From Gluconobacter vitians (lineage in GTDB: Bacteria > Pseudomonadota > Alphaproteobacteria > Acetobacterales > Acetobacteraceae), in assembly GCF_015244565.1 (NCBI RefSeq), contig NZ_JABCQG010000009.1, forward strand, positions 1-64,000: a stretch of DNA of 64,000 bases, in the 5' to 3' direction. The notes under the pieces were generated by a model. It was given only the letters and a program-made list of their open reading frames with translations. It made no database searches and was not told the DNA's origin. The translations under genes were made by a program, and so were the position numbers. This document shows, in pieces, positions 16,750 to 35,007 of this stretch; the stretch's first letter is position 1; each line of letters begins with the position of its first letter.

Positions 16750-16791
16750 GGGTTGGTTCTCGGGTCGATCCGGGAGAAAAGGTTGAAGCAG

Positions 16792-17244
16792 ATGGATGAA
16801 GACGTATCTGGTAAATGTTCTTTGCGACGGGAACGGTCATGGGAACGGAAAAAGAGATTTCTCGAACATCTGTCTGTCAGTGGAAATATTTCGGAAGCCG
16901 GGCGTGTCGCCGAGGTCCGGCGCAGTACGTTATATCTCTGGAAAGATACGGATAAGGAATTTTCTGCGCGTTGGGAGGAGGCTCTCGAAGAGGCTGTGGA
17001 TGCCCTGGAAGCGGAAGCGCGTCGACGCGCCGTGGAAGGATATGACGAGCCTATCACCTATGCGGGGCGAGTTGTCTGCGATCCGGATACGGGTAATCCG
17101 ATTGTTCGCAAACGGTATAGCGACGGACTGATGGCGTTTCTGCTTCGGGCACATCGTCCGTCCCGTTTCAGGGCGGGTATGGAATCCGAGGGGCGTTCGG
17201 GGACGATCTCGATCAGCATCAGCAGTGATGACAACGCCCTTTAG
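16792..17244 (+). CDS. terminase small subunit-like protein
   Basis: A 150-residue DNA-recognition subunit of the packaging motor. An N-terminal helix-turn-helix (LSVSGNISEAGRVAEVRRST, then LYLWK) is followed by a coiled helical stretch and a conserved C-terminal RYSDGLMAFLLRAHRPSRFR, a pattern common in small terminases beside TerL. ATG at 16792 follows GGGAGAAAAGG; an upstream TTG at 16753 is less likely. The 3' end overlaps terL by 17 bp. Confidence 0.75.
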   Translation: MDEDVSGKCSLRRERSWERKKRFLEHLSVSGNISEAGRVAEVRRSTLYLWKDTDKEFSARWEEALEEAVDALEAEARRRAVEGYDEPITYAGRVVCDPDTGNPIVRKRYSDGLMAFLLRAHRPSRFRAGMESEGRSGTISISISSDDNAL

Positions 17245-20006: not shown

Positions 20007-20518
20007 GTGTTGACGGGGGAATGATGTCCGGAACTGATGACACCATTGAGGATGTGGAGGCTCTGCGTCGGGCGCTGAATGAAGCGCGGAGCGAGGTTGA
20101 GGCGGTCCGTCAGGAAATGACGGATGTTGTGACGCGGCAGGAGACGCTTCAGCGCAGTCATGAGGAAGCGCTGGCCCGCGTGCGGGAGGACAGTGACCGG
20201 GAAGTCATTGTGGCGGCGCTTCGGGCGGAGGCGATCCGCAATGGTGCGCATAATCCTGATGATGTCGTGCGGCTGATTGATCTGGAAGGGATCAACCGGG
20301 GCGAGGATGGTTCCGTGGTCGGTGTGGCCGAGGCTTTGCAGCAGGCGCGTCAGGAGCGGGCCTATCTGTTCGGCGAGGTGCTGCGGCCCGGATATTCGAG
20401 CGGGACCACGGTCGGGCAGGCAGCGCCTCGCCCGGGCGGGATCGAACCGTTCAATGCGCGCGCCGTCAGCGAGGCGGATTATGAAGCGCGCAAATGGCAG
20501 TTTCTGGCCCAGGGCTGA
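20003..20518 (+). CDS. capsid scaffold protein
   Basis: A 171-residue protein with an uninterrupted acidic coiled coil over about residues 15-75 (DVEALRRALNEARSEVEAVR), typical of scaffolds, and a C-terminal YEARKWQFLAQ tail that probably contacts the capsid protein. It sits between portal and capsid genes, the usual position. No head-maturation protease is encoded next to it. A GGCCCGG/CCGGGCC hairpin follows at about 20518-20545. Confidence 0.75.
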   Translation: MSVDGGMMSGTDDTIEDVEALRRALNEARSEVEAVRQEMTDVVTRQETLQRSHEEALARVREDSDREVIVAALRAEAIRNGAHNPDDVVRLIDLEGINRGEDGSVVGVAEALQQARQERAYLFGEVLRPGYSSGTTVGQAAPRPGGIEPFNARAVSEADYEARKWQFLAQG

Positions 20519-20588
20519 GGCCCGGGACGATATTTGACCGGGCCTGATGGCAGGCCGGGTTCAGAAAACACATTTACGGAAAAAATAC

Positions 20589-21968
20589 ATGAGCATTGAT
20601 AATTTTCCTGTTCAGCTTCAGGCCGCCATTCAGCAGGGTTTTCTAGCCCGCGAATTCGAGAATGGTCTGAAATCCCGGCTGGGTTTTCGCCAGGTTGCCG
20701 ATCGTGAAGTGTTCCCGAACGCCATCGGTGAGACGCTGACGAAAACCCGTAAGAGCCTCAAGGCTCCGGTGACGACGCCGCTGAACCCGACGGGCAATAC
20801 GAATTTCGATAATGGTCTGAGCCCGTCCGGCTGGTCGATCGAGCAGTATACGCTCTCCATCAACCAGTATGGCGATACGATCGACCTGAACATGGTGACC
20901 AGTGGCGTGGGGATTGCGTCGCAGTTCCTGGCCAATGCCAACACCAATGGCGTGCAGGCGATGCAGTCTCTGGACCGTCTGGCACGCAATACGCTGTTTG
21001 GCGGTGCACAGAATGGTGTGGGTGGCTATCTGGGTGGCAATACGCGTGTGACGGCGACGCTGGGAAGTGCTGATAATACCATTGCTGTCGATGATATCCG
21101 TGGTTTTCAGTCCGTGATCGTGAATGGTCAGGTGACGCCGATCAGCGCGACCAATGGCATGACCGTGACGGTGGGCGGGGATGTTTACACACTTGTCAGC
21201 GTGACGGCGGATGCGACGAATGTCTCCATGGCGCCGGGCGGTGTTTCGGGTCGGATGACCTTCTCCGCGTCCGTGTCGGTTGCCGATGGGACGGAAGGTC
21301 AGGCGGTTGTGGCGTCCACGGCGCCGCTGGTGATCCGCCCGAACGGGCGTCTGACCACGGCGGCACTGCAGACGGCAAGCTCGAGTGGTCTGGCGGATAC
21401 GCTGGGCATCCAGCAGGTTCTGGCCGGTGTGGCGACGCTTCGGCGTAACAACGTGCCGATGATCAATGGTGCGTATCACTGTTACCTGGATGATCTGCAG
21501 CTTCTCTCGCTGTTCCGTGATCCGGATTTCAAGCATCTGTACCGTGGCGCATATGGTTCGGAAGAGTATCGTTCCGGTCAGGTGATCGAGCTTCTGGGTG
21601 TGCGGTTTATCCCGACGACGGAAGCGCCGCAGCAGGCGTCTCTGGGTTCCGGTTCCATTCATCGTGCCCTTCTGCTGGGTCAGGGTGCGCTGATTGAGGG
21701 TGACTGCGCGCTCACGGGTCATTCCGATATTCCGGATTCCGAGCGCGCGCTGATCGAGATGGTGGACAGCGTGGCAATGGTGACGCGTGAGCCGCTGGAT
21801 CGTCTGCGCCAGATCATTGCGCAGTCCTGGTACTGGATTGGCGGTTTTGCGCTGCCGACGGACGTAACGGCGGACATGACGGTCATTCCGACGGCCACGA
21901 ACAGCTATCTCAAGCGTGGTGTCGTGATCGAGAGCCTTGGTACGGATGCGCTTGGTCTGACGTTCTGA
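20589..21968 (+). CDS. major capsid protein
   Basis: A 459-residue shell protein. The helical N-terminus (AAIQQGFLAREFENGLKSRL) and the C-terminal ALIEMVDSVAMVTREPLDRL region with IAQSWYWIGGFALPTDV fit an HK97-type fold. A beta-rich, Thr/Val/Gly-rich segment at roughly residues 150-255 looks like an inserted surface or stabilising domain. The ATG at 20589 was chosen because an earlier in-frame codon lies in the preceding hairpin region. Long intergenic spacing and balanced codon use suit a highly expressed gene. Confidence 0.85.
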   Translation: MSIDNFPVQLQAAIQQGFLAREFENGLKSRLGFRQVADREVFPNAIGETLTKTRKSLKAPVTTPLNPTGNTNFDNGLSPSGWSIEQYTLSINQYGDTIDLNMVTSGVGIASQFLANANTNGVQAMQSLDRLARNTLFGGAQNGVGGYLGGNTRVTATLGSADNTIAVDDIRGFQSVIVNGQVTPISATNGMTVTVGGDVYTLVSVTADATNVSMAPGGVSGRMTFSASVSVADGTEGQAVVASTAPLVIRPNGRLTTAALQTASSSGLADTLGIQQVLAGVATLRRNNVPMINGAYHCYLDDLQLLSLFRDPDFKHLYRGAYGSEEYRSGQVIELLGVRFIPTTEAPQQASLGSGSIHRALLLGQGALIEGDCALTGHSDIPDSERALIEMVDSVAMVTREPLDRLRQIIAQSWYWIGGFALPTDVTADMTVIPTATNSYLKRGVVIESLGTDALGLTF

Positions 21969-22022: not shown

Positions 22023-22424
22023 ATGTCCGGAACGGTTGGTTTATCGACGGATATTCTCTCGGAAGGAGAGAAAATGGATATCCGTCGGTTCTGTGGTTAT
22101 CCCGCGATCGGGTCGAGGGAGGGTAATCAGGAATCCTGGCGTTTCTTTCAGGTGGAAGGAGCGCTGGAATGGCGGATGAACTATCTGTCCGGGGCGGAAC
22201 TTCAGCAGATCCGGCTTTATCTGTCGCAGCTTTATCCGCTGGAAAATGCGATTACGGCGTCGTCGGACAATCTGGATACGGCGCGGGCGGCGGCCTGGTA
22301 TCACAATGGCCGGGAAGTGCAGGACCGGGTGATGCTGTTCACGCTGTGGCGGCGGCGTCTGTGTGCGTTTCTGGGGGTGACGGGTGGTCTGGAGTTGCAG
22401 GACGGCCGGGCGATCGTGGTTTGA
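22023..22424 (+). CDS. head-tail connector-type protein
   Basis: A 133-residue protein directly after the capsid gene, in the slot for head-completion adaptors that bind the portal. The start MSGTVGLSTDILSEGEKMDIRRFCGYP and the helical YLSGAELQQIRLYLSQLYPL segment fit a small helical adaptor. A GGGGAGAATGAC ribosome binding site precedes the ATG. I assign it by position and size; no specific family motif is certain. Confidence 0.6.
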   Translation: MSGTVGLSTDILSEGEKMDIRRFCGYPAIGSREGNQESWRFFQVEGALEWRMNYLSGAELQQIRLYLSQLYPLENAITASSDNLDTARAAAWYHNGREVQDRVMLFTLWRRRLCAFLGVTGGLELQDGRAIVV

Positions 22425-22434
22425 GGAGAGCGAT

Positions 22435-23034
22435 GTGCAGCAGGCGATGATCGCGGCCAGGCTCTCCAAAGGATATGCGAGGGCTGCGGCCGTGCTTGGG
22501 GCCTCGGCGGAGCAGTATCGTCCTTCGGGCGGTCTGTTGCCGATGGAGACCCTTCATGCACAACCCATGCTGGCTTTTGACGTCGATGCCGGGTTTTCGT
22601 TTGCGAGGCCGATCGGGTGGGGCATTCCGACGGAATATGTCCTGACGGATCGGCGGGATGATACGCAGGTTGCCGATATTCTTGTGGCGAGCGGGCGGAC
22701 GTATTTTGTGGCGTCCGTGGAGCCGTTGCGGCCTCCCCTGTGTGTGGTGTGCAGCCGGACGGTGTCGGTCAGCGGTGTTACGGGAACGGTGCAGACGCTG
22801 GTTTCGGACTGTCCGGCGGCTATCATCATGCGGGCGAAGGGAGAGTCTTCGGGCAGTGGCGTTCCGGGAGCGACGCGGCCGGGTCAGTCCGTGATGTATC
22901 TTCCGCTTCTGCCAGGGGTGGTGCTGACGCCTTACATGACGGTCACGACTGATCTGGGCACGACTTATACAGTCAATGCGGTGGAAATGTCCGGGTTCGG
23001 GATCCGGTGTACCATGTCGCTTCAGCAGGTCTGA
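22435..23034 (+). CDS. phage head-tail joining protein
   Basis: A 199-residue protein starting at GTG 22435 with GAGGAGAG as ribosome binding site, 11 bp after the previous stop. The N-terminal part is helical, and the central region (PTEYVLTDRRDDTQVADILV) onward is beta-rich, as in minor head or neck proteins. Location between connector and tail terminator supports that role. The exact function is unresolved. Confidence 0.55.
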   Translation: MQQAMIAARLSKGYARAAAVLGASAEQYRPSGGLLPMETLHAQPMLAFDVDAGFSFARPIGWGIPTEYVLTDRRDDTQVADILVASGRTYFVASVEPLRPPLCVVCSRTVSVSGVTGTVQTLVSDCPAAIIMRAKGESSGSGVPGATRPGQSVMYLPLLPGVVLTPYMTVTTDLGTTYTVNAVEMSGFGIRCTMSLQQV

Positions 23035-23046
23035 GGGAGGGCAAAA

Positions 23047-24027
23047 ATGACAGATGCCTCCAAAGTCGGATTGGCGCTGGCTTATAACTGTGCGCAGGTC
23101 CTGTATCCGGACGGGCTTTCGGGAGCTTCAGTGACGGGGCGTCAGGTGGTGCTGCGGCGGGGGTGGCTGTTGCCGAGCGATCTTTTTGCGGCGCAGAACA
23201 TTCGCAACAACATCGATTTCGTGACTGTTACCATGGCGCCGCGGAAAATGCCTGAATGGGCTGAACCTCTGGGGCGGCCCTGGCGGGTGCAGCAGAAGGT
23301 GGAGCCTACGGTTGGGGTTGTGGTTACGGACGGGACGGTTGAGATCGTCTTTTCCGGGACATCCACGCCTGCGGGTGTGGTGGCGGTCTGGCTGGATGAC
23401 ATGCCGCATGGGGGAGCGCCTTCCGCGGCTTATGCGGTGACGGCGCAGGATACGCCAGCGACGGTTGCGGCGGCTCTGGCGGCGGCGTTGACGGATGGTG
23501 TGGCGAGCGGGGCGACGGTCAGTGTGCCGGGACGGGTTCTGAACGGTCATGCCGGTGGGTATGGGCAGTCGGTCCGGGTGACGCGGCGGCAGGCGCAGCT
23601 GTATCGGGTTTCGATCTGGACGGCTGATGCAACGGCGCGGGAGACACTGGCGTCCGTACTGGATGCGGCCCTGGCGGAGCAGAGCTGGATCAGCACTCTG
23701 GACGGGCGGGAGGCTCAGCTCCGGTTCCAGAGCGTGGAAGACGTCGACACGATGCAGAACGAAGCGTTGTACCGGCGGGATTATTTCTATGAGCTGGTTT
23801 TCGATACCCTTCAGGTGCAGTGGGCCTCCGAAATGCTGTGTGGCATTGGAAACCTGTCCGGCCAAGAGGGGCTTCCGGCGTCTTTCGGTATTCTGGCACC
23901 GGGTACGGCAAACCAGACAGTGACGGCGGCTCTGGAGGCCATGCAGGCTGCGGTTGCGGCGCAGGCGGCGGCTTCGTCCTATCCGGGGCTGGGTGTTGAC
24001 CGGTTCGGGACGGTGATTGCCGCCTGA
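23047..24027 (+). CDS. neck/tail-terminator-type protein
   Basis: A 326-residue protein with an inserted beta domain (VEIVFSGTSTPAGVVAVWLD) followed by an Ala-rich helix, and a C-terminal part (EALYRRDYFYELVFDTLQVQ) resembling the beta sheet of tail-completion proteins. It precedes the sheath gene, as tail terminators do in contractile phages. The end is Ala-rich. The assignment rests mainly on order. Confidence 0.55.
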   Translation: MTDASKVGLALAYNCAQVLYPDGLSGASVTGRQVVLRRGWLLPSDLFAAQNIRNNIDFVTVTMAPRKMPEWAEPLGRPWRVQQKVEPTVGVVVTDGTVEIVFSGTSTPAGVVAVWLDDMPHGGAPSAAYAVTAQDTPATVAAALAAALTDGVASGATVSVPGRVLNGHAGGYGQSVRVTRRQAQLYRVSIWTADATARETLASVLDAALAEQSWISTLDGREAQLRFQSVEDVDTMQNEALYRRDYFYELVFDTLQVQWASEMLCGIGNLSGQEGLPASFGILAPGTANQTVTAALEAMQAAVAAQAAASSYPGLGVDRFGTVIAA

Positions 24028-24123
24028 CGGACAGGCTGAGTCAAAGGGCTGAAATTTCATCAGGAAAGCGGGTGGCTTCTGTCGGAAGCGCCCGCTTTCT
24101 GCATTTTGGAGAGCGATCCGGGG

Positions 24124-25611
24124 ATGTCTCTGGTCTATCAGGCGGGAACGCTGAATACCACGGCACTGACCGTGCCAAATCTTTATGTGCAGATTGCCCA
24201 GCCGCAGACGCTGGCCCTGGCGGGCGCGTCCTCTTCGCAGCTGGGTGTCGTTGGGACTGCCGGCTGGGGGCCGGTGGGGATGCCGCTGCCGATTGGGGGC
24301 ATGAGCGATTATGTCGCGGCGTTCGGCGCCAAGCAGAACAGGACGACGGATGCGGGTCTGGCGGTCAATATCGCCGTGATGCAGGAAGCGTCGTCCTTTG
24401 TGGTCGTCCGTGTGACGGACGGGACGGATGTGGCGGCATCTGGCACGATCGATGGCGTGGAAATCCAGGCTGTCCATACAGGCAGCGTGGGTAATGGCAT
24501 CGTAGCGGCCGTGACGGCGACAGGTTCCGGATATGGGCTTGCAGTCACGCATGCGGATCTGGGGGCGGCGACCTATGCGGGGGCGGACTGGTCTGCCATT
24601 GCGGCGGCTGTGGCGCAGGATCTGAATGCGCTGGTGAAGGTTGCGCTTCCGGAGACGGTTCCGGCTGTGGCCGCAGCGAACGTTACGCTTTCGGGCGGTA
24701 CGGATGGTGGTGTACCGACGACGGCTCAATTCATAGGGCAGGACAGCACGGTGCGGACCGGCATGTATGCGCTGCGCGGGCAGGGCTGTGCGGTGGCGCT
24801 GCTGCATGGTGTGACGGACAGCACGTCCTATACGGCTCAGGCGGCTTTCGGGACGTCCGAAGGGATCTACATGGTCGCGGCGGGGCCAACGTCCGATACG
24901 GTGACGAATGCCATTTCGGTCAAGGCAGCGTGTGGTCTGGATGCGTCCTCGGTCAAGCTGATGTTTGGTGACTGGCTGTGGTGGAATGATGACACCAACG
25001 GCATGATGCTGGTCAGTCCGCAGGCGTTTGCAGGTGGCAAGCTGGTGGCGCTTTCGCCGGAACAGTCCAGTCTCAACAAGGCGCTGTCGGGAGTAGTTGG
25101 CAGCCAGAAAGCTGGTCTGACGGGGAGCAGTGCGACCTATTCCGCGGCTGAGCTGTCTGCCCTGTTTACGGCCGGGATTGATGTGATCTGCAATCCGGCG
25201 CCGGGTGGAACGTACTGGGCTGTGCGTTGCGGTCACAACTCGTCCAGCAAGAGCACCATGAATGGTGATAACTACACGCGCCTGACGAATTACATTGCGG
25301 CTTCGCTTGCTGGCGGCATGGGCAGTTATGTGGGTGAAGTGATCAACGATACGCTGTTCAGCGATATTCGTTCGACGCTTCTGGGTTTTCTGTCGTCGCT
25401 GCTGTCGCAGGGTATTCTGGGCGTTCAGAATGGTGAACTGCCTTACAGCGTGGTCTGTGATTCGAGCAACAATCCGCAGTCCCGCACGGCGCTGGGCTAT
25501 GTGCAGGCGGATGTGGCGGTTCGCTACCAGGGCATCAACGAGAAATTCATCGTCAATCTGCAGGGTGGTGCGTCTGTTACCGTGTCCTCTGCATCGGGGA
25601 GTATCGGCTAA
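24124..25611 (+). CDS. contractile tail sheath protein
   Basis: A 495-residue sheath subunit. The N-terminal TVPNLYVQIAQPQTLALAGA strand, the variable surface domain (residues about 110-190) and the conserved C-terminal region (GINEKFIVNLQGGASVTVSS) are typical of myovirus sheaths, as is the NDTLFSDIRSTLLGFLSSLL helix. The presence of this gene makes the tail contractile. ATG at 24124 is preferred over TTG at 24106. It abuts the tube gene without a gap. Confidence 0.88.
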   Translation: MSLVYQAGTLNTTALTVPNLYVQIAQPQTLALAGASSSQLGVVGTAGWGPVGMPLPIGGMSDYVAAFGAKQNRTTDAGLAVNIAVMQEASSFVVVRVTDGTDVAASGTIDGVEIQAVHTGSVGNGIVAAVTATGSGYGLAVTHADLGAATYAGADWSAIAAAVAQDLNALVKVALPETVPAVAAANVTLSGGTDGGVPTTAQFIGQDSTVRTGMYALRGQGCAVALLHGVTDSTSYTAQAAFGTSEGIYMVAAGPTSDTVTNAISVKAACGLDASSVKLMFGDWLWWNDDTNGMMLVSPQAFAGGKLVALSPEQSSLNKALSGVVGSQKAGLTGSSATYSAAELSALFTAGIDVICNPAPGGTYWAVRCGHNSSSKSTMNGDNYTRLTNYIAASLAGGMGSYVGEVINDTLFSDIRSTLLGFLSSLLSQGILGVQNGELPYSVVCDSSNNPQSRTALGYVQADVAVRYQGINEKFIVNLQGGASVTVSSASGSIG

Positions 25612-26037
25612 ATGGCAAATCCATACAGCATTGGCCGGGATTGCCGGATTACCGTTTTGTGGAATGGTCAGCGGGTTGACCTGAGGGATGTCACGTCTTT
25701 CAGTGCCGCCCAGGAAACGCAGGCTCTGCGTGCCAACCCGCTGAACGGCGTGCCGCTGGAGTTCAATGTTCCGAATGGTTGGCGGGGAGCGTTCCAGATT
25801 GCCCGGGCCAACGCGGCGCTGGACAATCTGGTGGCGGCTGTCGAGGCCGCTTACTGGAATGCCGGGACGGTCGGGAGCGGGACGATCTATCAGTACGTGA
25901 CCGAACCGGATGGTACGACCAGCACTTGGGAATTCAGCAATGTTTCTATGCAGCTGAAGAGTGATCCCTGGCAGGCGGATCACATGATCCATCAAACGGT
26001 TCAGTTCTTTGCTTCTACGAGGACGAAAATTTCGTGA
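25612..26037 (+). CDS. tail tube protein
   Basis: A 141-residue tube subunit of the inner channel. Sheath followed directly by a tube of this size is the standard order of contractile tails. The sequence is beta-rich with a single central helix (RANAALDNLVAAVEAAYWNA), as in tube folds. Its TGA overlaps the start of the chaperone gene (GTGAGTGA). Confidence 0.82.
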   Translation: MANPYSIGRDCRITVLWNGQRVDLRDVTSFSAAQETQALRANPLNGVPLEFNVPNGWRGAFQIARANAALDNLVAAVEAAYWNAGTVGSGTIYQYVTEPDGTTSTWEFSNVSMQLKSDPWQADHMIHQTVQFFASTRTKIS

Positions 26038-26351
26038 GTGATTTTCCGCAGGAAGTTGTTCTGTCCGACAAGCGCCGTCTGACGCTGCGCGAGATTGATC
26101 CGGCGGATATGCTGGATCTGATCGAGGCGGCTGGCAGTGCGATCAATGGCGCTTCGGCATCTGCATGGCTTGGCTATGCGGAAATGATCTGTTCGGTGAC
26201 GGCCATTGACGGTGTGCCGGTTCAGATGCCGCAGACGAAGGATGAAATCCGCGATCTGGCGCGTCGCGTCGGGAAGGCCGGGATTGCTGCGCTGACGCCG
26301 CTTTTCGAGCGTGATGCGGATGAGGATCTGCGGGACGTCGCAAAAAACTGA
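26034..26351 (+). CDS. tail assembly chaperone, short form
   Basis: A 105-residue helical protein in the position of the G/gpE chaperone that keeps the tape measure soluble before tail assembly. It starts at GTG 26034 and ends at TGA 26349-26351. Its last three sense codons are GCA AAA AAC, which form a perfect -1 slippery heptamer with the preceding reading frame, so a fraction of ribosomes should continue into the next segment. Short and long forms in unequal amounts are a conserved feature of tailed phages. Confidence 0.85.
   Translation: MSDFPQEVVLSDKRRLTLREIDPADMLDLIEAAGSAINGASASAWLGYAEMICSVTAIDGVPVQMPQTKDEIRDLARRVGKAGIAALTPLFERDADEDLRDVAKN
26342..26348 (+). other. -1 ribosomal frameshift site A AAA AAC
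   Basis: The heptamer has the exact X XXY YYZ register against the zero frame (GCA AAA AAC, then TGA). A stop codon directly after it and an open -1 frame of 57 codons downstream match known tail-chaperone frameshifts. Confidence 0.85.
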
Positions 26352-26521
26352 GCCGGCACTCCGGGTTCCAGGAGATGCTTTATCTGCTGGATCACGGGGT
26401 GCCGTGGGATGTTTTGCGAGGATGGTCGAGAGCGCGGCGTCTGGCGGCCTGTGTCATTACCGCAGAGCGGGACGGGCACAGTTTTGACTGGGACATGATG
26501 TCCTATCGGGGAGAGGTATGA
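26348..26521 (+). CDS. tail assembly chaperone, frameshift extension (GT-type)
   Basis: After slippage the -1 frame reads 57 codons to TGA at 26519-26521, giving a fusion of about 162 residues with the upstream 105. The extension has the usual features of T/E' segments: helical, with MLYLLDHGVPWDVLRGWSRA followed by an SFDWDMMSY motif near the end. It has no start codon of its own in a suitable place. Its stop overlaps the ATG of the next gene by four bases, coupling that gene to the long form. Confidence 0.8.
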   Translation: MSRHSGFQEMLYLLDHGVPWDVLRGWSRARRLAACVITAERDGHSFDWDMMSYRGEV

Positions 26522-27411
26522 TGCGGGAGGCTATCTGGCGGAATATTCTCTCGATCAGGGCGTTTCATGTCAGATCTTCCAGAGGGATGGCACGAAGGTC
26601 GATTCTGGTTTCGGCTGTGCCCCGTTTGAAAAGACGGGTCGGGGTTGTTGCGTTTCGTGGGCGAAGCCATTCTGTTTTGGAAGTTGGGAACAGGTTTTCC
26701 GGAACACGTAGAGGCTCTGATGCGCCGGACAAAGTTTTTGTCCGAAAGGCGGAAAGCATTGTTCATGCACCGTTATTTTCCGGATATACGAAGTTCCGGT
26801 CAGGGATGATGGTGAGGTCGGTTCAGTCTTCATCAAGGCCTGTTTCGAGCGTGATGAAGATGAAGAGCAGAGCTGCCATCGTTCCGGATATTGTAGTTGC
26901 TCGGAAGCAGATTTCGCGACCGGTTGAAAAGCCGGTGCGGAGTGCAGGAACGTGGACGCGGGTTGCTCCTGTGATTGCGCGAGGTACGGCAGCCGTCAGG
27001 CGTCCGGTACCGATTGCTGCCGTAGCGATGAAGCGGCGTCACCATAACGCTGCGGCAGAATTCCCTGCTCTCCGCAAAGTGGTCAGGACAGGTGTGAGGG
27101 GCGGAGGCAGGGCTGCCGCCAGGAGCAATATCGGCAACGGGGTGAGTTACGTACCGGTGGTTCGTAGAACTGTGGCCAGCGGGCAGTTTCATGAGAGCGG
27201 TGGTCAGAAGAATGCGCGGCATCAGCCTGTTCTTGGCTCCGAACGTCATCACGAGCCAGAGGCCCTAGATACTCATCTGGATCATGGGGCGGGACATGTT
27301 GATTTTCTCCTAGGAAATCGACGTTCCCGTCTGACTGCGCGCCGCTCTGGCAGTGGTGTCGATGAAATCATGCAACCTCAGTATCCGGGCCGAAGTATCG
27401 GATTTTTCTGA
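26518..27411 (+). CDS. unknown basic protein in the tape-measure position
   Basis: A 297-residue, strongly basic protein rich in Arg, Val and Ser, with a more acidic, His-containing C-terminal third ending VDEIMQPQYPGRSIGFF. It lies exactly where the tape measure gene normally is, between chaperone and baseplate hub genes. It lacks the long hydrophobic and coiled-coil stretches of tape measures, which usually have 600 residues or more. It may be an unusually short tape measure, a replacement protein, or the product of a deletion. No family recognised. The frame is the only long one here and uses ordinary codons. Confidence 0.6.
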   Translation: MMREAIWRNILSIRAFHVRSSRGMARRSILVSAVPRLKRRVGVVAFRGRSHSVLEVGNRFSGTRRGSDAPDKVFVRKAESIVHAPLFSGYTKFRSGMMVRSVQSSSRPVSSVMKMKSRAAIVPDIVVARKQISRPVEKPVRSAGTWTRVAPVIARGTAAVRRPVPIAAVAMKRRHHNAAAEFPALRKVVRTGVRGGGRAAARSNIGNGVSYVPVVRRTVASGQFHESGGQKNARHQPVLGSERHHEPEALDTHLDHGAGHVDFLLGNRRSRLTARRSGSGVDEIMQPQYPGRSIGFF

Positions 27412-27429
27412 CAGAGGAGATGTTCCCTG

Positions 27430-28344
27430 ATGGGTATTGGCCTTTCTGACATAGAAAATGCCATTGGCGCTGTAGGGCGGCTGGAATCATCATCACCCGT
27501 CATACTGGGAAATCTGGTTCTGACAGGAATTGAGGTTCCTGACACATTGCAGGTCGGCGGGCGTCAGATGCTTGTCGTACACCGTTTGCCGGGAGGTGGG
27601 CGGGTTGTTGATGCGCTGGGGAATGATCCGGGCCGTCTGGAGCTGAAAGGCCGGTTTCTTGGTCCGGATGCACAGATGCGGGCGCAGGCGGTCGAGCGTA
27701 TGCGGATGGCGGGGCAGCAGGTTGCCTTTTCGGCGGCCGGTCTGTCCGTGCAGGTCTGGATCGCCCAGTTCACTTATGTCTACCAGGCAAAAGGGGCTGT
27801 CTGTTCCTATACGCTGATCCTTGAAAGACCGCAGGAAACAGCATCCACACAGATTTCGAGCACTCTGTCCGGAGTGCTTGGGGATGATGTGGGGAGTGCT
27901 CTGGACAGTTTTTCGGGGGTGGTTTCGGACGTTTCCGAAGGTGTGTTTACGGCTGCTGGACAGGTGTCTTCGGTTGTGGGGCAGATCATGCCGCTGGCCA
28001 GTCTGGTGGGAGCTGGTGGATTTGCTGCGAAGGTGACGGATGCTCTGGGGACGGTCAACGGTGTGGCGCAGAGTGGCATGAATCTCGCCACGGTTCCGTC
28101 CGCACTGGCGTCTGTTGCGGGTGGGCTGGAAAGTGCGGGAAGCGGTTTGCAGTCTGTGATTACTGGGGCAGGACAGAACGTCGAAGCCATCCAGCCGGTC
28201 AATAGTGTTTCGCTGAATGCTCTGGGTCAGAACGCAGCACTTCTGAGTGCTGCGACGGATGCAGGAAGTCTGGTTAATCGAGCTGCGGCGAATGTGGCCG
28301 TGGCGCAGGGACAGGAAACGTCTGTGCCGTCCGTTTTCGCATGA
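27430..28344 (+). CDS. tail/DNA-circularisation-type protein
   Basis: A 304-residue protein. Residues 15-135 form a beta-rich domain (VPDTLQVGGRQMLVVHRLPG and ELKGRFLGPDAQMRAQAVER) resembling the N-terminal domain of DNA-circularisation proteins (Mu gp43-like) that in fact cap the tail near the baseplate. The rest is Ala/Ser/Gly-rich with small hydrophobic helices, such as VVGQIMPLASLVGAGGFAAK. The position before the LysM and hub genes agrees with a tail-tip adaptor. Confidence 0.65.
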   Translation: MGIGLSDIENAIGAVGRLESSSPVILGNLVLTGIEVPDTLQVGGRQMLVVHRLPGGGRVVDALGNDPGRLELKGRFLGPDAQMRAQAVERMRMAGQQVAFSAAGLSVQVWIAQFTYVYQAKGAVCSYTLILERPQETASTQISSTLSGVLGDDVGSALDSFSGVVSDVSEGVFTAAGQVSSVVGQIMPLASLVGAGGFAAKVTDALGTVNGVAQSGMNLATVPSALASVAGGLESAGSGLQSVITGAGQNVEAIQPVNSVSLNALGQNAALLSAATDAGSLVNRAAANVAVAQGQETSVPSVFA

Positions 28345-28348
28345 GGAA

Positions 28349-28561
28349 ATGATGCAGGATATTATTGTCAGTGCTGCGGATATTTCCCTGTTTCATGTGG
28401 CTGCGCGTGAACTGGGGGATGCGTCCCAGTGGTGGAGAATTGCGCAGGTCAACGGGATGACGGATCCGGATCTGGGGAAAATCCCGGAAACTGTCGTGCT
28501 GAAGCTTCCAACGGTTGAACGTGATCTGGTGTCCGGTCTGCCGGATGGAGCCGGGTCATGA
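28349..28561 (+). CDS. LysM-type tail protein X
   Basis: A 70-residue protein corresponding to phage tail protein X, a single LysM-like domain thought to bind the tail tube end or peptidoglycan. The pattern SLFHVAARELGDASQWWRIA then NGM and a closing PETVVLKLP fits. Two adjacent ATGs (28349, 28352) follow a GAGG site. The end overlaps the hub gene by four bases (ATGA). Confidence 0.75.
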   Translation: MMQDIIVSAADISLFHVAARELGDASQWWRIAQVNGMTDPDLGKIPETVVLKLPTVERDLVSGLPDGAGS

Positions 28562-29619
28562 ATGTCAGAAATCTGGAAGCCCGGGTCCTTTTTGACGGCC
28601 AAGTTGATCCGGTTCTGGCGCTTGTGCAGTTTGAAATCGATGCCAGCCGGTATGAAGCCTGTGATGTTGCCTCGCTGCGTTTTGCAGTTCGGAATCAGGA
28701 TCAGGGAAACCTGTGGTTTGAGGTAGAGCAGCCGGCGCGGAAATGGGTGACGCTTCAGATGCGGAATACCCAGAGCGCCAATTCATCCTGGACCACGCTG
28801 TTCGAGGGGCGGCTGGATCATATCGAATATGCGGCTGAGCATGCCTGTCTGGAAATGGAATGCCGGGATGCGCTGGCGGCTCTGATGGATCTGCGGGTTC
28901 AGGATGCCTGGCTTAACCATACCCAGCAGGAGCTTCTGGAAATTATGGCGCAGGCTGCAGGACTGGATGCGACGATTTCGCTGCCTGCAGATCAGGCCAC
29001 GCTTATGGCTGGTCAGTTCTGGCAGATCGAGCATAAACGCGGTGCTCTCATGGGGCAGCATCGGTTCCAGACGGCGGCTGATCTGGCTTTTACGATTGCA
29101 CGGGATGCGTTCTGTGATCTTTACGCAGAAGGAACGTCCCTTGTCTGTCAGCCGCTGGGCTCTGCTTCCGATGCGGGCGCGCAGGTCACGGATATGCGTC
29201 ATGCCGTTCTTGAGACGAATGTTGCGCGGGACCTTCAGCTTTTATCCGGTGTCGTTGTGCATATGGCGTCGTGGGATTCACGACAGAGAAGCACGACGCA
29301 GGTCTATTACGATGGTGTTTCATTTTCTCAGGATGCACCGGCGGGAAGTGCCAGCATCCATACGTTCCGTGTTCCTGGACGCAGGCTGGATGAGTTGCAG
29401 CGGCTGGCTCGTGGCAAACATGCGCGGATTGCTGCTCATGCCTTGTCCGTGCGGATCAGGATTCCGGGCGTCATTGGTATTGCGCCACGGAATTTCATGA
29501 CCGTCGTGACTGGCAGTCAAGAAAAGACCTTGGGAATTGATCAGGTTATTTCCCGTTTTTCTGTGGAAAAGGGATTTGTGCAGCAGGTTGTCCTGCGGGA
29601 TCGCGGAGGGAAAGCATGA
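28558..29619 (+). CDS. late control D-type baseplate hub protein
   Basis: A 353-residue protein of the gpD/gp27-like hub family, forming the trimeric platform on which the spike sits. The fold is beta-rich with a split tube-like domain; QELLEIMAQAAGLDATISLP is the typical mid-protein helix and strand. It is coupled to both neighbours by four-base overlaps (28558-28561, 29616-29619), showing a tightly packed baseplate cluster. Confidence 0.82.
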   Translation: MNVRNLEARVLFDGQVDPVLALVQFEIDASRYEACDVASLRFAVRNQDQGNLWFEVEQPARKWVTLQMRNTQSANSSWTTLFEGRLDHIEYAAEHACLEMECRDALAALMDLRVQDAWLNHTQQELLEIMAQAAGLDATISLPADQATLMAGQFWQIEHKRGALMGQHRFQTAADLAFTIARDAFCDLYAEGTSLVCQPLGSASDAGAQVTDMRHAVLETNVARDLQLLSGVVVHMASWDSRQRSTTQVYYDGVSFSQDAPAGSASIHTFRVPGRRLDELQRLARGKHARIAAHALSVRIRIPGVIGIAPRNFMTVVTGSQEKTLGIDQVISRFSVEKGFVQQVVLRDRGGKA

Positions 29620-30239
29620 CTGATGCCCGGTTTGATGCCGCTGTGCTGCAGGGCCGGACGGCGCATACGATGTTCGGGATTGTCTCGGCCGTTGATCCTG
29701 TCAATCATGCCGTAAAAGTCCGGATTCAGCCTGAAAATGTGGAGACTGGCTGGATACCGGATGCGGGTGGCGTTCATGCGGGGGATCTGCGGATTGCATG
29801 TCCGTCTTCGCCCGGAACGCATGTTGTCCTGCAGCCGGTTGAAGGGGATGGCGAACATCTGGTCGTGACGGGATGTGTGTTTGATACCGTCGTGATGGCG
29901 CCTGTTTCTCCGTTCACCGGTTCTGCTGCCCAGCCTGGTGAACTGCTGGTGAGGGGCGGGTGTGGACGCCCGCCGGTTTCATCCTCCGGAGCGTCGGGAG
30001 CTGCCTCTTCCGAGGCTGGCTGGCTGCATATCGGGCCAAGTGGTGTTGCTGCGGGGGCAGGTAATGCACGGCTGGTTCTCAGGGACGGAGAGATCAGTTT
30101 TTCCGTGGGAGGCACAGCTATGACACTGAGTTCCGCCGGGCTGAAGGTTTCGGGTGGGGATGTGCGGACGGACCAGCATTCCCTTAACGGGCATGTCCAT
30201 GTTGCAGGCAGCCAGAATACGGGAGGGCCGATTGGATGA
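29616..30239 (+). CDS. baseplate assembly protein V, tail spike
   Basis: A 207-residue spike protein that punctures the target membrane. An N-terminal OB-type domain (FGIVSAVDPVNHAVKVRIQ) is followed by a Gly/Ser-rich linker and a repetitive beta-helix region. The C-terminus LNGHVHVAGSQNTGGPIG contains the His-x-His pair that binds a metal ion at the apex of P2-type spikes. The gene overlaps both neighbours. Confidence 0.85.
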   Translation: MTDARFDAAVLQGRTAHTMFGIVSAVDPVNHAVKVRIQPENVETGWIPDAGGVHAGDLRIACPSSPGTHVVLQPVEGDGEHLVVTGCVFDTVVMAPVSPFTGSAAQPGELLVRGGCGRPPVSSSGASGAASSEAGWLHIGPSGVAAGAGNARLVLRDGEISFSVGGTAMTLSSAGLKVSGGDVRTDQHSLNGHVHVAGSQNTGGPIG

Positions 30240-30595
30240 TCGCTCTTTCACATGTTTTTGGAAATGATCTGGTTCTGAACTCTGGCCGAGTTGGGACGGT
30301 TTCCGGGACGGAACTGACGCGGCAGAGTCTGCTGAGACGTTTGCTGACCGTGCCGGGGGATTATATCTGGCAGCTTGATTATGGTGTGGGGCTGCCGCTC
30401 ATGGTTGGTCAGGTTATTGCGCCGGAAGCCATGGAATCTGTCATCCAGGCGCAGGTGCAGGCGGATGCCGGCGTGGATTCATCGCAGGCGGTGACTGTAA
30501 CTGTAACGGACGAAGGGAGCGGCGTTTGCAGATGCAACGTCTCTTATGTCGATGCCGGATCCGGTCAGCAGCAGAGCCTGTCTTTTTCCTACTGA
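30236..30595 (+). CDS. baseplate wedge protein W (gp25-like)
   Basis: A 119-residue GPW/gp25-family protein that links hub and sheath at the baseplate. The conserved core QSLLRRLLTVPGDYIWQLDY then GVGLP is clear, as is the glutamate-containing VIAPEAMESVIQAQV helix. The ATG overlaps the spike stop (ATGA). Confidence 0.85.
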   Translation: MIALSHVFGNDLVLNSGRVGTVSGTELTRQSLLRRLLTVPGDYIWQLDYGVGLPLMVGQVIAPEAMESVIQAQVQADAGVDSSQAVTVTVTDEGSGVCRCNVSYVDAGSGQQQSLSFSY

Positions 30596-30639
30596 AATGA
30601 TGAGAGCGGCACGTTACTGAACCGCTCCAAGAGGATGCG

Positions 30640-31779
30640 ATGTCTCTCTCCTTACGTTCCTTTTCCACGACTGTTTCCACAGCCGTGACAGCAGCGCAGG
30701 CCTCCTGTTCCCAGTTGCTGGATGTATCCATCGGTTCTCCTGCGCGGGCTTTGATGGAAAGTGTGGGCGGTGTTGGCCTGTGGTTGCAGTATCTGGTGCT
30801 GCAGTCGCTGCTGCGGACCCGTCTTGCGACGTCCACGGGCTCCGATTGCGACAGTTTCGTCAATGATTTCGGGATGACCCGGCTGCCGGGTACGCCTGCG
30901 ACGGGGCTTGTGACGTTTACGTCTTTCATGGCCAGCGAGCAGTCGGCGGTTGTGCCGCCTGGCGTTATTGTACGGACTGTGGGAGGAATTTCGTTTGTCG
31001 TGACGCAGGACCAGTCCCTGCCGACATGGTCTGCGTCTGCTGGAGGGTATGTGCGGGCAGCGGGTGTTGCCACGTTATCTGTCCCGGTTTCATGTCAGGT
31101 GGCCGGGTCGGCAGGGAATGTTTCGGCTGGCGCGATCTGCCTTATGGGCACTGCGGTATCGGGACTGGATACCGTGACGAATACGGCTCCTTTCCTCAAT
31201 GGTTCCGATCAGGAGACGGATAGCCAGTTGAGGGCACGTTTTCCGCTCTGGCTGGCAGCTAAGGCGTCCGCAAGTCGTGCAGCGGTCGGGAATGCCATTG
31301 CGAATGTCCAGACGGATCTGAGTTACTCGCTGCGGGATGGTCTTGATGCGGCAGGGCAGGCGCGGAGCGGGTATTTCACCGCCGTGATTAACGATGGGAG
31401 TGGTGTTCCTTCAGATCAGCTGCTGTCAGAGGTCTATGAGGTTATTGATTCGGTCCGGGCGCTCGGGGTCGGGTTTGGTGTGCAGGCGCCTCAGGTTCTG
31501 AGCGTGGATGTCTCCATGGATGTGGTGGTGCCGTCTTCCGTAACGGTACAGCAGGCGCAGAGTGCCATTCAGTCCGTTGTGGCAAAGGATATTGCGTCGA
31601 TGACGGTAGGCGATGGCTATCCGTATAGCCGCCTGTCCTATTTGGCCTATGCCGGTGCAGGCATTTCCGTGACGTCGGTTCTGAATGTCCGTCTGAACGG
31701 GGGGCAGGCTGATATTCCTGCAAACGGCAATCAGGCTCTGGTTGTCGGAAACATTCAGATCAATGTCACTCAGGGCTGA
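30640..31779 (+). CDS. baseplate J-like protein
   Basis: A 379-residue wedge protein of the baseplate J/gp47 family. Recognisable are the N-terminal region ending in GSDCDSFVNDFGMTR and the central ASAGGYVRAAG / VAGSAGNVSAGAI beta segment, followed by GSDQETDSQLRARFPLWLAA, a hallmark of J proteins. A 44-bp gap separates it from gene W, so it may have its own translation start signals. Confidence 0.85.
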   Translation: MSLSLRSFSTTVSTAVTAAQASCSQLLDVSIGSPARALMESVGGVGLWLQYLVLQSLLRTRLATSTGSDCDSFVNDFGMTRLPGTPATGLVTFTSFMASEQSAVVPPGVIVRTVGGISFVVTQDQSLPTWSASAGGYVRAAGVATLSVPVSCQVAGSAGNVSAGAICLMGTAVSGLDTVTNTAPFLNGSDQETDSQLRARFPLWLAAKASASRAAVGNAIANVQTDLSYSLRDGLDAAGQARSGYFTAVINDGSGVPSDQLLSEVYEVIDSVRALGVGFGVQAPQVLSVDVSMDVVVPSSVTVQQAQSAIQSVVAKDIASMTVGDGYPYSRLSYLAYAGAGISVTSVLNVRLNGGQADIPANGNQALVVGNIQINVTQG

Positions 31780-31821
31780 GGATTCGGAATCTGGCTCTAT
31801 CGGTAGGGATGAGGAATTCTC

Positions 31822-33060
31822 ATGGCTGTCTTTAATACATATCCGAAACTCGACGCCCTAACGGGCGAAGAGGTCTTTGTTCTGGCGGATTCCACCGGAA
31901 CGCGGACGGTTACGGCTACTGTGGCGCAGGTGATTGAGGCACCTGTCAGCGTTGAGGCCAGTGGTCAGTTCTATTCGGACAAGGGCGCACAGGTAAAACG
32001 GTTTGCGGACCGGCTTCTGGTTGGTGTTGCAGCGGAAAATCCGGCTCTGAGTGACCGGGCCAGTTCTTCGCAGAATGACTGGCTCTCGGAAACCATGGCG
32101 GCGACGTCGATTGGTCCATGGGCTCTGCAGGATGCCCAGTGCGCTTCCGTTGCGCAGTTCGGTAACAGCGCGTTTGTGGCTGGTTCGCGGACGTCCGATG
32201 CACTGAGTGGGTCTTCAGTTCTGGGTTTTCAGCCAAGCAGTATCGGAGTGGCGTCATGGGGAATTTCCGATGACACGTCCAATCCCACGACTACGACTGC
32301 CTATGCCTATTATGGCGAGGCATGGCGCATGGCGGGTGTGGATTATCAGCCTACTTTCGGAATGGAGCTTGAGGCGGTCAATTTCGGTGGTCTTGCTGTC
32401 GGACAGTCAACGCCTTATGCGCCAAATGTCGGTGGTGGCGTGTATGGGATCCAGCTTGGGGCTGGAGGTGGCCAGACGTCCGGAACCTCGGATGCCGCGG
32501 CGGGAATGGTTTTCGTATCCAATCCGAATTCCTGGCAGACGGGGATTGTCTTCGGGGCGCAATCCCTGACGGGAACGGACGGGAAAGATTCCGGATATGC
32601 ATCGGCTGTCTCGCTGGCCCGCAATCATGCTGTTGAGTGGCATACGCCTGAAACGGTTTCCGGCGTTGCAGGTGCTAATGTAGGCGCGTTTGTCCGTTCG
32701 ACAGTGACCGAGCGCTCCAACGGTACACGGCAGGAATTTACCGACAACGGAATCCTGTTTGCCAATATTGAAGGGGAAACGCTTTTCTCGATCGCTACGA
32801 TGGAGAACCCGACCAATGCGCTTCAGGTGCAGGCCGGCGCCGGAATGCAGGCAGCGGGTCTGTATGTCCAGGAAGGAACTGGAGGTTCCGGAAATCTGGG
32901 TCTTTTCCCGGCGAGTGGTGGAGAATTGCAGATTACATCGCCGGTTACGGGGGCAGGAACCACGATGCCGAGTGTCGCTGATGGTGGGTTCCTGCACATC
33001 AACATCAATGGCGCGGATTATCGTATCCCGCTAATGAGTGCTGCCCAGGCCGGGGGTTGA
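31822..33060 (+). CDS. tail fibre/spike-like protein between J and I
   Basis: A 412-residue, Gly/Ser/Thr-rich, low-Lys protein of beta character. The opening VFNTYPKLDALTGEEVFVLA resembles an anchor domain of fibre proteins. A C-terminal FLHININGADYRIPL strand occurs in trimeric fibres. Its position, between the J and I genes, is unusual since fibres normally follow I. Receptor binding or baseplate decoration are possible roles; no enzyme motif seen. Confidence 0.6.
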   Translation: MAVFNTYPKLDALTGEEVFVLADSTGTRTVTATVAQVIEAPVSVEASGQFYSDKGAQVKRFADRLLVGVAAENPALSDRASSSQNDWLSETMAATSIGPWALQDAQCASVAQFGNSAFVAGSRTSDALSGSSVLGFQPSSIGVASWGISDDTSNPTTTTAYAYYGEAWRMAGVDYQPTFGMELEAVNFGGLAVGQSTPYAPNVGGGVYGIQLGAGGGQTSGTSDAAAGMVFVSNPNSWQTGIVFGAQSLTGTDGKDSGYASAVSLARNHAVEWHTPETVSGVAGANVGAFVRSTVTERSNGTRQEFTDNGILFANIEGETLFSIATMENPTNALQVQAGAGMQAAGLYVQEGTGGSGNLGLFPASGGELQITSPVTGAGTTMPSVADGGFLHININGADYRIPLMSAAQAGG

Positions 33061-33064
33061 TGGC

Positions 33065-33751
33065 ATGGGTATTCTTTATGATGAAGAGCGGAATATTCTC
33101 CGGGCATCGGATGGAAGTATCCTGTTCGATACAGACCCGGCGCCGGGCTCGGCAGAGGATTTTGCAGGCCGCTTGAGGCGACTGTTGCCGAAGGGATGGT
33201 TTCCGCCCGAGCCTCAGGGACTGGATGAAGAGGCTGCACCGGTACTGGCGGCTCTTCTGAAGGGGTTTGGAGCTGTTCTGGCCGGGATCTGGCAGTTGAT
33301 GCTGGAATGCTCGCAGCAGATGCGTCTTTCGATGATGAGCGGTGCGTTTCTGGATATGGCCGCCAATGACTATTTTGGCGAAAGCGGTCTGGTGCGACAG
33401 ACGTCCGAGACGGATGGTGTCTATCGAAATCGGATCAGGACGTCCCTGTTCGCCGAACGCAATACACGTCAGGCCGTGACAAACGCGATCGTGGCGGCAA
33501 CCGGTGTTCAGCCGGTGATCATTGAGACACTGAACGCCGCTGACTGTCATGCTCTTGCCTGTGCCTCGTCTCCAGCCATGGGCGGGGGATATGGTTATGG
33601 GGCAACCGGTCTGCGCTATGGCAGCCTTCAGGGTGGCCAGTTTTTTGTAGAAACACAGTTGGGAAAAGCTGCGGATCTGGCAGCAGTCTGCCGTGCTGTC
33701 GACCAGACGGCGGCCATGGGCGTTACCGGCTGGATCAAGGTGAAAAGTTAA
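33065..33751 (+). CDS. baseplate protein I-like
   Basis: A 228-residue protein in the gpI slot after J, which joins the fibres to the wedge. Residues 30-130 are helical (DFAGRLRRLLPKGWFPPEPQ, then LAALLKGFGAVLAGIWQLML), as in the tail-protein I/DUF2313 group. The C-terminal half is Gly/Ala-rich. The ATG at 33065 lies 5 bp after the previous stop, and its own last base is the first of the next start (AATGG). Confidence 0.65.
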   Translation: MGILYDEERNILRASDGSILFDTDPAPGSAEDFAGRLRRLLPKGWFPPEPQGLDEEAAPVLAALLKGFGAVLAGIWQLMLECSQQMRLSMMSGAFLDMAANDYFGESGLVRQTSETDGVYRNRIRTSLFAERNTRQAVTNAIVAATGVQPVIIETLNAADCHALACASSPAMGGGYGYGATGLRYGSLQGGQFFVETQLGKAADLAAVCRAVDQTAAMGVTGWIKVKS

Positions 33752-35007
33752 TGGATCGGGCAATCGTTTATGCGGGATCGATCCCGCTTGATACGGATCT
33801 TCTGCGTGCAGGGCGTTACACCAAGGCTGCGCTCGGAAACCTGGCATCAATGCTTTATGGCCCGAACGTCACGGCAGCCTCCGGACTGGGATATGCCGCG
33901 TCTGTCAGTGATCTGAGCCTGACAGTTTATGCGGGGTCGATCGTGGCGCCAGGCGTCATGGATGTTTCGACTATTGGCGGAAATGGCGGGGGGCTCGGTG
34001 CGGATACGACCGCTCTGACATGCCAGTACTGTAGCACTGCGGCGCAGACTGTCACGATGCCCGGGACGGGGAATACCTATACGGTTTATGCCATCTGTTC
34101 CGAACAGGACGCTGATCCGACGGTGCTGCCATTCTTCAATGCCAGCAATCCGTCTCAGACACAGGCCGGTATCCAGAACTCCGGTGGGGCGCTCCCTGTC
34201 CGGCGATCGGGTATCATCACGCTGGTCGTGGCTACCAATCCTCCAGCAACTCCGGCAGGAGGACATGTTGTCGCACTTTATACGATTGCGGTCCCACAGG
34301 GGGCCAGCAGTCTCGCGGGTGTGACGGTTCAGCCGGGACAGGTTTTCTGGCCGACCATTCCCGAGCTGGCAACCCAGGCACTCCTCAAGGCATCCACGGA
34401 ACCCATGACGCTTGTGACCGGGAATGGCTCGGTTCCTGTTCCGGCCTGGGCATCCAGGGTGGAACTGCGCGCTATTGGCGGCGGCGGCGGCGGGGCAGCC
34501 TCGCAGGCCATGACGACAACCGGTTCGTTTTCAGGCGCGGGTGGTGGCGGCGGCGGAGATGCCTGGGGCATTTATGCTGTCAGCCCGACCCAGGGAAATG
34601 GTCTTGCCATTACTGTTGGAAACGGCGGTGCATCCGAGCAGACTGGTGGGACGTCCCTTGTAAGTTACAATGGACAGACACTCTTGCAGGCTGAAGGCGG
34701 TCAGGGCGGAACGTTCTATTCCACAACCGGCTCAGCCGGTGGTGTTGGCGGGAATGCGTCTGGTGGAACGGTCTGGAACCAGAGCGGAACTTCCGGCGGC
34801 GACGGGCAGTGCAATGCCTATACGTTCTCCGGCTATGGCGGTGATGGTCCATGGGGTGGCGCAGGGCGTTGCGGCAATCAGGGGGGCCGGAACGCCACAC
34901 GCTATGGCGCAGGTGGAGGCGGTTCCTATTCAGCAACGACTGATGGAACGGCTTCCAGTGGTGGCTCGGGATATCAAGGCTGTATCCTGTATCGTTTCCT
35001 CCCCTGA
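33751..35007 (+). CDS. tail fibre with polyglycine-rich receptor-binding domain
   Basis: A 418-residue fibre. The N-terminal 200 residues contain beta segments that attach it to the baseplate. From about residue 240 there are runs of Gly (GGGGGAAS, GAGGGGGGDAWG, GGVGGNASGG, GYGGDGPWGGAGRCGNQGGR) of the kind that form polyglycine-II helices in phage adhesins such as those of T2/S16-like phages. It would recognise a cell-surface receptor. It is the last gene of the element and stops 8 bp before the stop of the opposing cytochrome gene. Confidence 0.75.
   Translation: MDRAIVYAGSIPLDTDLLRAGRYTKAALGNLASMLYGPNVTAASGLGYAASVSDLSLTVYAGSIVAPGVMDVSTIGGNGGGLGADTTALTCQYCSTAAQTVTMPGTGNTYTVYAICSEQDADPTVLPFFNASNPSQTQAGIQNSGGALPVRRSGIITLVVATNPPATPAGGHVVALYTIAVPQGASSLAGVTVQPGQVFWPTIPELATQALLKASTEPMTLVTGNGSVPVPAWASRVELRAIGGGGGGAASQAMTTTGSFSGAGGGGGGDAWGIYAVSPTQGNGLAITVGNGGASEQTGGTSLVSYNGQTLLQAEGGQGGTFYSTTGSAGGVGGNASGGTVWNQSGTSGGDGQCNAYTFSGYGGDGPWGGAGRCGNQGGRNATRYGAGGGGSYSATTDGTASSGGSGYQGCILYRFLP

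Follow-up and report, generated by a model that had tools for sequence, protein, structure and literature searches.

Defective phages of the PBSX type in Bacillus make headed contractile particles from genes in the order sheath, tube, frameshifted chaperone, tape measure and XkdP/Q/R/S/T/U-like baseplate proteins, and PBSX has a long tape measure and lysis genes of its own. A divergent repressor alongside is a feature of inducible phage-like elements. The tail of the gene transfer agent RcGTA is non-contractile. Where a ruler is helical, the helix rises by about 1.5 angstrom per residue, compared with about 3.5 for an extended chain, and disordered rulers are found in length control of the flagellar hook and the injectisome. 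The RcGTA tail measures 49 nm (PMC9662315) and contains five tube hexamers, with the tape measure forming a trimer with a long helix (PMC7296036); in excerpts of the gene transfer agent classification paper (PMC9662315), tails are non-contractile wherever the tail type is stated. For phage TP901-1, tape measure mutants without the N- or C-terminal 30 residues are described as non-infecting, while interior deletions shorten the tail (PMC5099701). Among the matches listed from open-licence papers, covering titles and the starts of abstracts, none described a gene transfer agent or a conserved contractile element in Gluconobacter or the Acetobacteraceae. According to an excerpt of PMC2241609, GOX1212 (portal), GOX1215, GOX1222 and GOX1224 are unique to Acetobacteraceae, and from gene order we infer that these are genes of the element described here.

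The window, that is, the whole stretch of 64,000 nucleotides of Gluconobacter vitians DNA that was analysed, carries a phage-like block at 15334-35007, flanked by dnaB and by minus-strand cytochrome c and GMC oxidoreductase genes. From reading its protein, we take the gene at 12723-14243 to be dnaB. Head, packaging and tail genes are present in the element together with several ORFs without known function (Table 1). No integrase, replication or lysis family was a best match when 24 element ORFs were compared with PHROGs and part of them also with Pfam. PF05838 occurs in only 6 of the 26 genomes of our genus set (Gluconobacter with Neokomagataea inside), and no common lysin was therefore found by that family. 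The repressor beside the element is likely its switch; it was found at 61 of 133 loci as 40 distinct sequences, in acetic acid bacteria, with two short matches (79 and 22 residues) and the rest 77-98% identical. The 412-residue protein encoded between the wedge genes had no match in the phiKX1 stretch searched, is strongly conserved in the genus and is possibly a receptor-binding spike or fibre. Going by its position, the small protein at 28247-28561 is presumably LysM-like, and the gene at 27430-28344 presumably corresponds to the Mu gp43 position. A 955-codon frame open on the minus strand at 23128-25995, antisense to joining, sheath and tube genes, is probably an effect of composition.

Table 1. 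Features of the element and its border, with the evidence for each assignment.
Feature	Coordinates	Strand	Evidence
Divergent helix-turn-helix repressor beside the element	14829..15221	-	PHROG repressor matches
Terminase small subunit	16753..17244	+	phrog_4044, E 7e-38; weak secondary transposase-family match, E 7e-4
Terminase large subunit	17225..18541	+	phrog_979, E 4e-79; TIGR01547 (PBSX family) E 3e-16, below its cut-off
Portal protein	18588..20006	+	phrog_145
Scaffold	20003..20518	+	phrog_194
Major capsid protein	20547..21968	+	phrog_1357; marker for distribution searches
Three genes (22023, 22384, 23047) between capsid and sheath, putative head-tail joining	22023..24027	+	phrog_14539, 14605, 13532; role inferred from position
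Tail sheath (contractile tail)	24106..25611	+	phrog_23
Tail tube	25612..26037	+	phrog_12993 (no function named); 43% identity to phiKX1 gene 3' of its sheath; role by position
Tail assembly chaperone, zero-frame product	26034..26351	+	phrog_20383 (no function named); 55% identity to phiKX1 over 91 aa; role by position and frameshift
Slippery heptamer A-AAA-AAC, -1 frameshift	26342..26348	+	slippery pattern near chaperone end in relatives
Chaperone -1 frame extension (KLSRHSGFQEMLYLLDHGVPWDVL...)	26345..26521	+	conserved extension frame
Slot protein, 297 aa, short and basic, probable tape measure	26518..27411	+	slot position as for phiKX1 and Emery tape measures
Slot protein N-terminus MMREAIWRNIL..., ~45 columns, moderately conserved	26518..26652	+	mean identity 0.63 (core group, 13 rows)
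Probable tape measure C-terminal anchor, residues 268-297, end GVDEIMQPQYPGRSIGFF	27319..27408	+	dN 0-0.046 in last 32 codons (8 pairs); profile match to phiKX1-type C-terminus, with controls
Baseplate hub ring protein, beta domain and C-terminal helices	27430..28344	+	fold matches: baseplates of Mu (9ki1), diffocin, phiCD508, others
Small protein, XkdP position	28247..28561	+	phrog_28233, phrog_21362; no domain match
Baseplate hub	28558..29619	+	phrog_52 tail protein, E 5e-4; hub role by position
Spike / baseplate V	29616..30239	+	phrog_6142; TIGR01644 below cut-off
Baseplate wedge: gp25-like 30236-30595, baseplate J 30640-31779	30236..31779	+	
Conserved protein, 412 residues, between wedge genes	31822..33060	+	no PHROG or Pfam family; median dN/dS 0.05
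Second wedge protein (baseplate I position)	33038..33751	+	phrog_26379, phrog_7378
Tail fibre	33751..35007	+	phrog_863

An earlier note on this DNA, made from the letters alone, had read the slot after the chaperone as coding for 297 basic residues with no long coiled coil, and had proposed a missing or drastically short tape measure. One open frame of 297 residues does fill the slot that separates the tail chaperone gene from the baseplate hub gene, with a pI of 12.0 and 55 lysines and arginines against 17 aspartates and glutamates, and the protein is drastically short when compared to the tape measures of phiKX1 (742 residues), a Luteibacter MAG (795-802) and phage Emery (999). It has no PHROG or Pfam family (E 0.001), and a direct search with it matched no phage record (E up to 1). 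Structure prediction bore out the absence of a long coiled coil: AlphaFold2, with 21 aligned homologues, returned a mean pLDDT of 44.9 and no fold, with only two helices, both short (residues 3-12 and 268-276), and none in the interior of this low-confidence model. The further claim that no other gene in the element could be a tape measure also stands. The gene at 27430-28344, with its long predicted C-terminal helices, was considered as a hidden tape measure and rejected, as its fold matches baseplate hubs and its phiKX1 homologue co-occurs with the 742-residue tape measure; the match to Mu baseplate chains has an E of 1.5e-7, with a query TM-score of only 0.28 and an rmsd of 27 over the whole length.

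The -1 shift extends the chaperone by 58 residues, and the TGA stop of this extension (26519-26521) overlaps the ATG of the slot gene at 26518 (ATGA), which suggests coupled translation. Of 125 chaperone hits, 112 carry a slippery pattern near the end, which corresponds to 84 of 97 distinct proteins, and 17 of 18 chaperone examples have both the pattern and a related extension.

A close phage comparison for the element is phiKX1, a complete 53 kb Komagataeibacter phage (LC644975) with matches to 17 element proteins from portal to fibre. Its tape measure gp610 lies between chaperone and hub, as does the annotated tape measure gp16 of phage Emery; unlike the element, phiKX1 has further genes between chaperone and hub. 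The phiKX1 tape measure, at 742 residues and with a pI of 5.9 and a match to PHROG tape measures (phrog_28, E 1.3e-6), differs from the slot protein, yet both have a common C-terminal motif ending PGR(S/A)IG. The phiKX1 protein matches the C-termini of short slot proteins of genus g84 (L138, L144 and L140; 373-500 aa) with E 3e-4 to 1.6e-3, and when profiles were compared with each other, C-termini from Gluconobacter and other acetic acid bacteria matched the phiKX1 type with a probability of 95.3% (E 2e-8). As controls, column-shuffled profiles reached no more than 5.2% (200 tries, a few repeating the preceding value), and 20 other element proteins gave no C-terminal value above 8.8%. The matched stretch comprises the C-terminal ~30-60 residues only and was reached via profiles and intermediates; the Gluconobacter C-terminal profile by itself failed to pick up phiKX1 even with E allowed up to 10, and no sequence similarity was found between the slot interior and any tape measure. 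When the loci, among which some genomes are present twice, were searched with a profile of the 45 C-terminal residues of the genus slot proteins, 60 ORFs were found; 57 were the top slot ORF and 3 lay in the slot region. The slot protein thus looks like a tape measure descendant and not a typical member, as its predicted interior is without long helix, coiled coil or hydrophobic segment. The name that fits it better is that of a remodelled tape measure with its C-terminal anchor retained.

The capsid gene is present as a single copy in each of the 26 genus genomes. Its relatives (E 1e-60), which include some prophage genes, occur in 110 of 249 family genomes and 54 of 102 genera, and are single copy in 103 of the 110. 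Pairwise search found the slot protein in 23 of the 26 genus genomes, source genome included, and synteny with the C-terminal profile brings this to 25, counting G022, where the ORF is cut by a contig end; two weak matches outside the genus (E ~0.007) were taken as chance. For Gluconobacter morbifer (G007; L052 / L148), tube, chaperone, slot and hub genes were not found and the sheath abuts the next hub gene; this copy of the element has decayed, whereas the rest of the genus conserves it.

Where the slot could be read, taking the longest slot ORF of each locus gives 83 distinct sequences, 73 of them with 240-500 residues, 3 longer (692, 742 and 802) and 7 shorter. The shorter ones comprise two from g92, one half of a split frame at L066, where the other half bears the C-terminal motif, one that comes from the drawing of the hub ORF (L072/L135) and three at L089, L113 and L124, which have no clean slot ORF. 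Being longest does not by itself identify an ORF as the slot protein; C-termini were checked for 60 ORFs by profile, for g84 by phiKX1 and in 11 genomes by the g120 profile. Long phiKX1-like tape measures are present at L069/L143, L076 and L139, with one cut by a contig end at L110/L145. Genome G097 carries both the long-form L143 and the short-slot L094, and the two forms can thus occur side by side. Genome G216 has a single-copy element (L139) with a 781-residue tape measure, which branches with genus g84 in both trees; shortness is therefore not universal, and L139 is either a prophage or an element that never shortened. In two loci from genera outside the acetic acid group (L119 and L131), the slot proteins are proline-rich (18-23%) and sometimes acidic (pI 4.7, L119), and the linker chemistry therefore differs between genera.

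In four genomes of the related genus g92, ~184-200 bases separate chaperone and hub (the hub start of G116 being extrapolated), which leaves room for the frameshift extension only. True absence of the tape measure was considered and rejected when a C-terminal profile built from the sister genus g120 found a relocated gene. This profile recovers the slot gene in 4/4 g120 genomes, its own source, and in 7/7 genomes of six other genera, for which the places of the genes were checked (L119, L126, L131, L116, L121, L132 and L122). In three g92 genomes the last gene of the element codes for a basic protein, 258-280 aa long, that bears the C-terminal motif, and in G116 a piece of such a protein, cut by the contig end, starts another contig. 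The E-values were 4.5e-7 for G269, 8.6e-6 for G116, 0.008 for G233 and 0.24 for G187, in which another place scored 0.025; the weak matches in G233 and G187 were accepted because position and motif fit. A search of g92 with phrog_28 found nothing. Since g92 keeps the relocated gene, the short protein seems to be retained even when moved. The g92 elements L217, L218 and L219 also contain three large fibre-like genes, with the relocated tape measure last, and in L218 and L219 genes for a small protein and, as read by eye, a muramidase-like product lie between these and the tape measure.

None of the same-genus matches found by similarity has a stop inside the slot frame. At genus loci, the full-length frame is open at 20/20, and each other forward frame has 4-26 stops per locus; since the longest open frames were the ones chosen, zero stops is partly by choice. 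The slot gene has dN/dS below 1 in 8/8 pairs, with a median of 0.49 for the whole gene, and in the same pairs dN is 0-0.046 in the last 32 codons and up to 0.86 in the middle. In the 13 core rows, mean identity is 32% in the middle and 92% in the last 32 columns, with a length of 274-297 aa (mean 284); over 21 genus rows the length is 249-309. Median dN/dS is 0.018-0.145 for the nine genes from the terminase large subunit to the tube, 0.18 for the chaperone and 0.05-0.14 for the eight genes 3' of the slot. The slot C-terminus is under strong purifying selection; purifying selection also acts on all 18 other element genes measured, with tube, capsid and portal the most constrained (0.018-0.029) and the terminase mid-range (0.075). 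The gp25-like gene gave high values (0.84 and 0.71) in two pairs with L022, and medians were kept. L022 (G018) shows only partial matches for the chaperone (34/105 residues) and the gp25-like protein (70/119), and these genes may be broken, misread or, the genome being a draft, affected by sequencing error. In the comparison with the nearest genome, dN is 0.27 and dS 0.43 for the slot gene, compared to dN ≤0.031 and dS 0.08-0.43 for the 18 other genes. Its dN is thus ~nine times the largest neighbour-gene value while its dS is still just within what the neighbours show, at the top, which points to fast protein evolution rather than import.

A tree of joined portal, capsid and sheath for 55 genomes has 31 of 52 splits in common with the RpoB tree; 200 label shuffles gave 0.2 on average and never more than 2. 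Among 32 well supported element splits, 22 are also well supported by RpoB and 4 are in conflict. The correlation of element and RpoB distances is 0.93 within the genus (26 genomes), 0.53 for the other 29 and 0.92 overall, each reached by 0 of 2000 permutations. The 55 genomes were taken from capsid matches, so element-free genomes are not represented, and G131, which is without RpoB, was left out. For the multi-copy genomes G026, G097, G104 and G196 the short-slot copy was used, a choice that favours our reading; the long form of G216 was included. By these sequence comparisons, inheritance of the element is largely vertical, and acetic acid bacteria seem to have inherited the particle for a very long time.

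The best reading of these genes is that the element would make a domesticated contractile-tailed particle with a short tail. On the scale of phiKX1 (98.9 nm for 742 aa), the slot protein would give a tail of 39.6 nm; the 98.9 nm was measured for the phiKX1 host strain (excerpt of PMC8566455) and is used here as scale only. At 1.5 angstrom per residue the estimate is 44.5 nm, which assumes a helix where none is predicted in the interior, and with a TP901-1-like intercept of 127 residues our own arithmetic gives ~25 nm (from part of PMC5099701). An extended linker chain could give a tail much longer than these estimates, and were the linker extended and not helical, the rule of so many angstroms per residue would not apply to such a tape measure. 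PMC8566455 lists Gluconobacter particles of 71.8-94.6 nm from three strains, which are not assignable to this element and, as its product, would require an extended linker. The text of section 7 of that paper puts the capsids at 41 nm and the tails at 156 nm, unsupported by its own Table 1 in the excerpt, and an Ameyamaea particle is given a 15 nm tail.

In the mechanism that we propose, the frameshifted chaperone would bind the nascent short tape measure, and the C-terminal anchor would dock on the baseplate hub encoded by the adjacent gene. The tube would then polymerise round the linker until the N-terminus is covered, giving a short tail if the protein acts as a ruler. On firing, the linker would exit, followed by the packaged DNA, which may be host DNA, as in a gene transfer agent rather than a killing particle.

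We consider it probable that the slot protein is the tape measure of the element, made of a short N-terminus, a fast-evolving basic linker of near-fixed length and a conserved C-terminal anchor, inside a vertically inherited, headed, contractile-tailed phage-like particle. The odd composition and missing family match of the frame would fit a non-coding artefact of base composition, but its being open at all 20 loci while the other forward frames are full of stops, together with a C-terminal dN near zero, makes this close to inconceivable. A decaying prophage is scarcely more credible. The earlier note had offered, besides a very short tail, an internally deleted gene that would make particles abnormal, and the great shortness of the protein relative to phage relatives, as well as the loss of four genes in G. 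morbifer, could be read in that way. That part of the note is not supported, as regards a recent deletion: the slot gene occurs in 25/26 genus genomes among collinear neighbours, short versions are common over much of the family and in many genera, the g92 copy was relocated but kept, and the 18 other genes are under purifying selection. That the protein is no ruler is an unlikely reading, in better standing than decay: it might be a lumen plug or a DNA-binding or injected protein with a C-terminal anchor, with tail length set otherwise. Its basic, unfolded and fast-evolving interior would suit such a role, as would the freely varying chemistry, acidic or proline-rich, in other genera and a g92 gene that no longer adjoins the chaperone. 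Against this, length in the core group stays near 284 while the sequence drifts, as a ruler predicts (yet it spans 249-309 over 21 genus rows), chaperone and frameshift are for the most part still present, and the conserved part matches a tape measure C-terminus.

If the slot protein is a tape measure, the particle could still serve different ends. It is possibly a gene transfer agent that moves DNA between cells, and we put forward, tentatively and at less than even confidence, that it is a contractile-tailed gene transfer agent which has followed much of one family, its tail length set not by a coiled coil but by a disordered, drifting, basic linker between a conserved start and a hub anchor. 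A PBSX-like killing particle, that is, a bacteriocin that has a head, a contractile tail and a short tape measure, is likewise a serious possibility held short of an even chance. The head and contractile tail, the tail-fibre gene and the adjoining divergent repressor agree with killing, as does a terminase similarity to the PBSX family that is partial and below its cut-off. Tube, capsid and portal are nevertheless the most constrained genes, and the spike candidate at 31822-33060 is conserved and not diversifying as a weapon against relatives would. We lean to a gene transfer agent, given how constrained capsid and portal are and that the spike candidate is conserved.

A vertically inherited contractile gene transfer agent in industrial acetic acid bacteria would, if true, be a new branch. 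The slot gene is also a natural experiment, in which almost free drift has spared the length and the C-terminal anchor, and it separates dispensable from required features of a tape measure. The TP901-1 tape measure, as described in excerpts of PMC5099701, is like the slot protein in that its ends are needed and its interior is free, but at ~937 residues it is largely helical and has a hydrophobic region needed for infection, and this need counts against the slot protein as a tape measure. R-type tailocins have a tail without capsid or packaging genes, unlike the element, in which terminase, portal, scaffold and capsid are present and constrained. PBSX-type defective Bacillus phages share with the element the gene order and the headed contractile design; PBSX has lysis genes, whereas no lysis family was matched in the element. 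The marker GTA_TIM (PF13547), one family of the RcGTA type, was found in 0/26 genus genomes, with Caulobacter vibrioides positive as a control. RcGTA is, like the element, a phage-derived alphaproteobacterial cluster with a short tape measure, g11 (Rcc01694), from which the element differs by its contractile tail.
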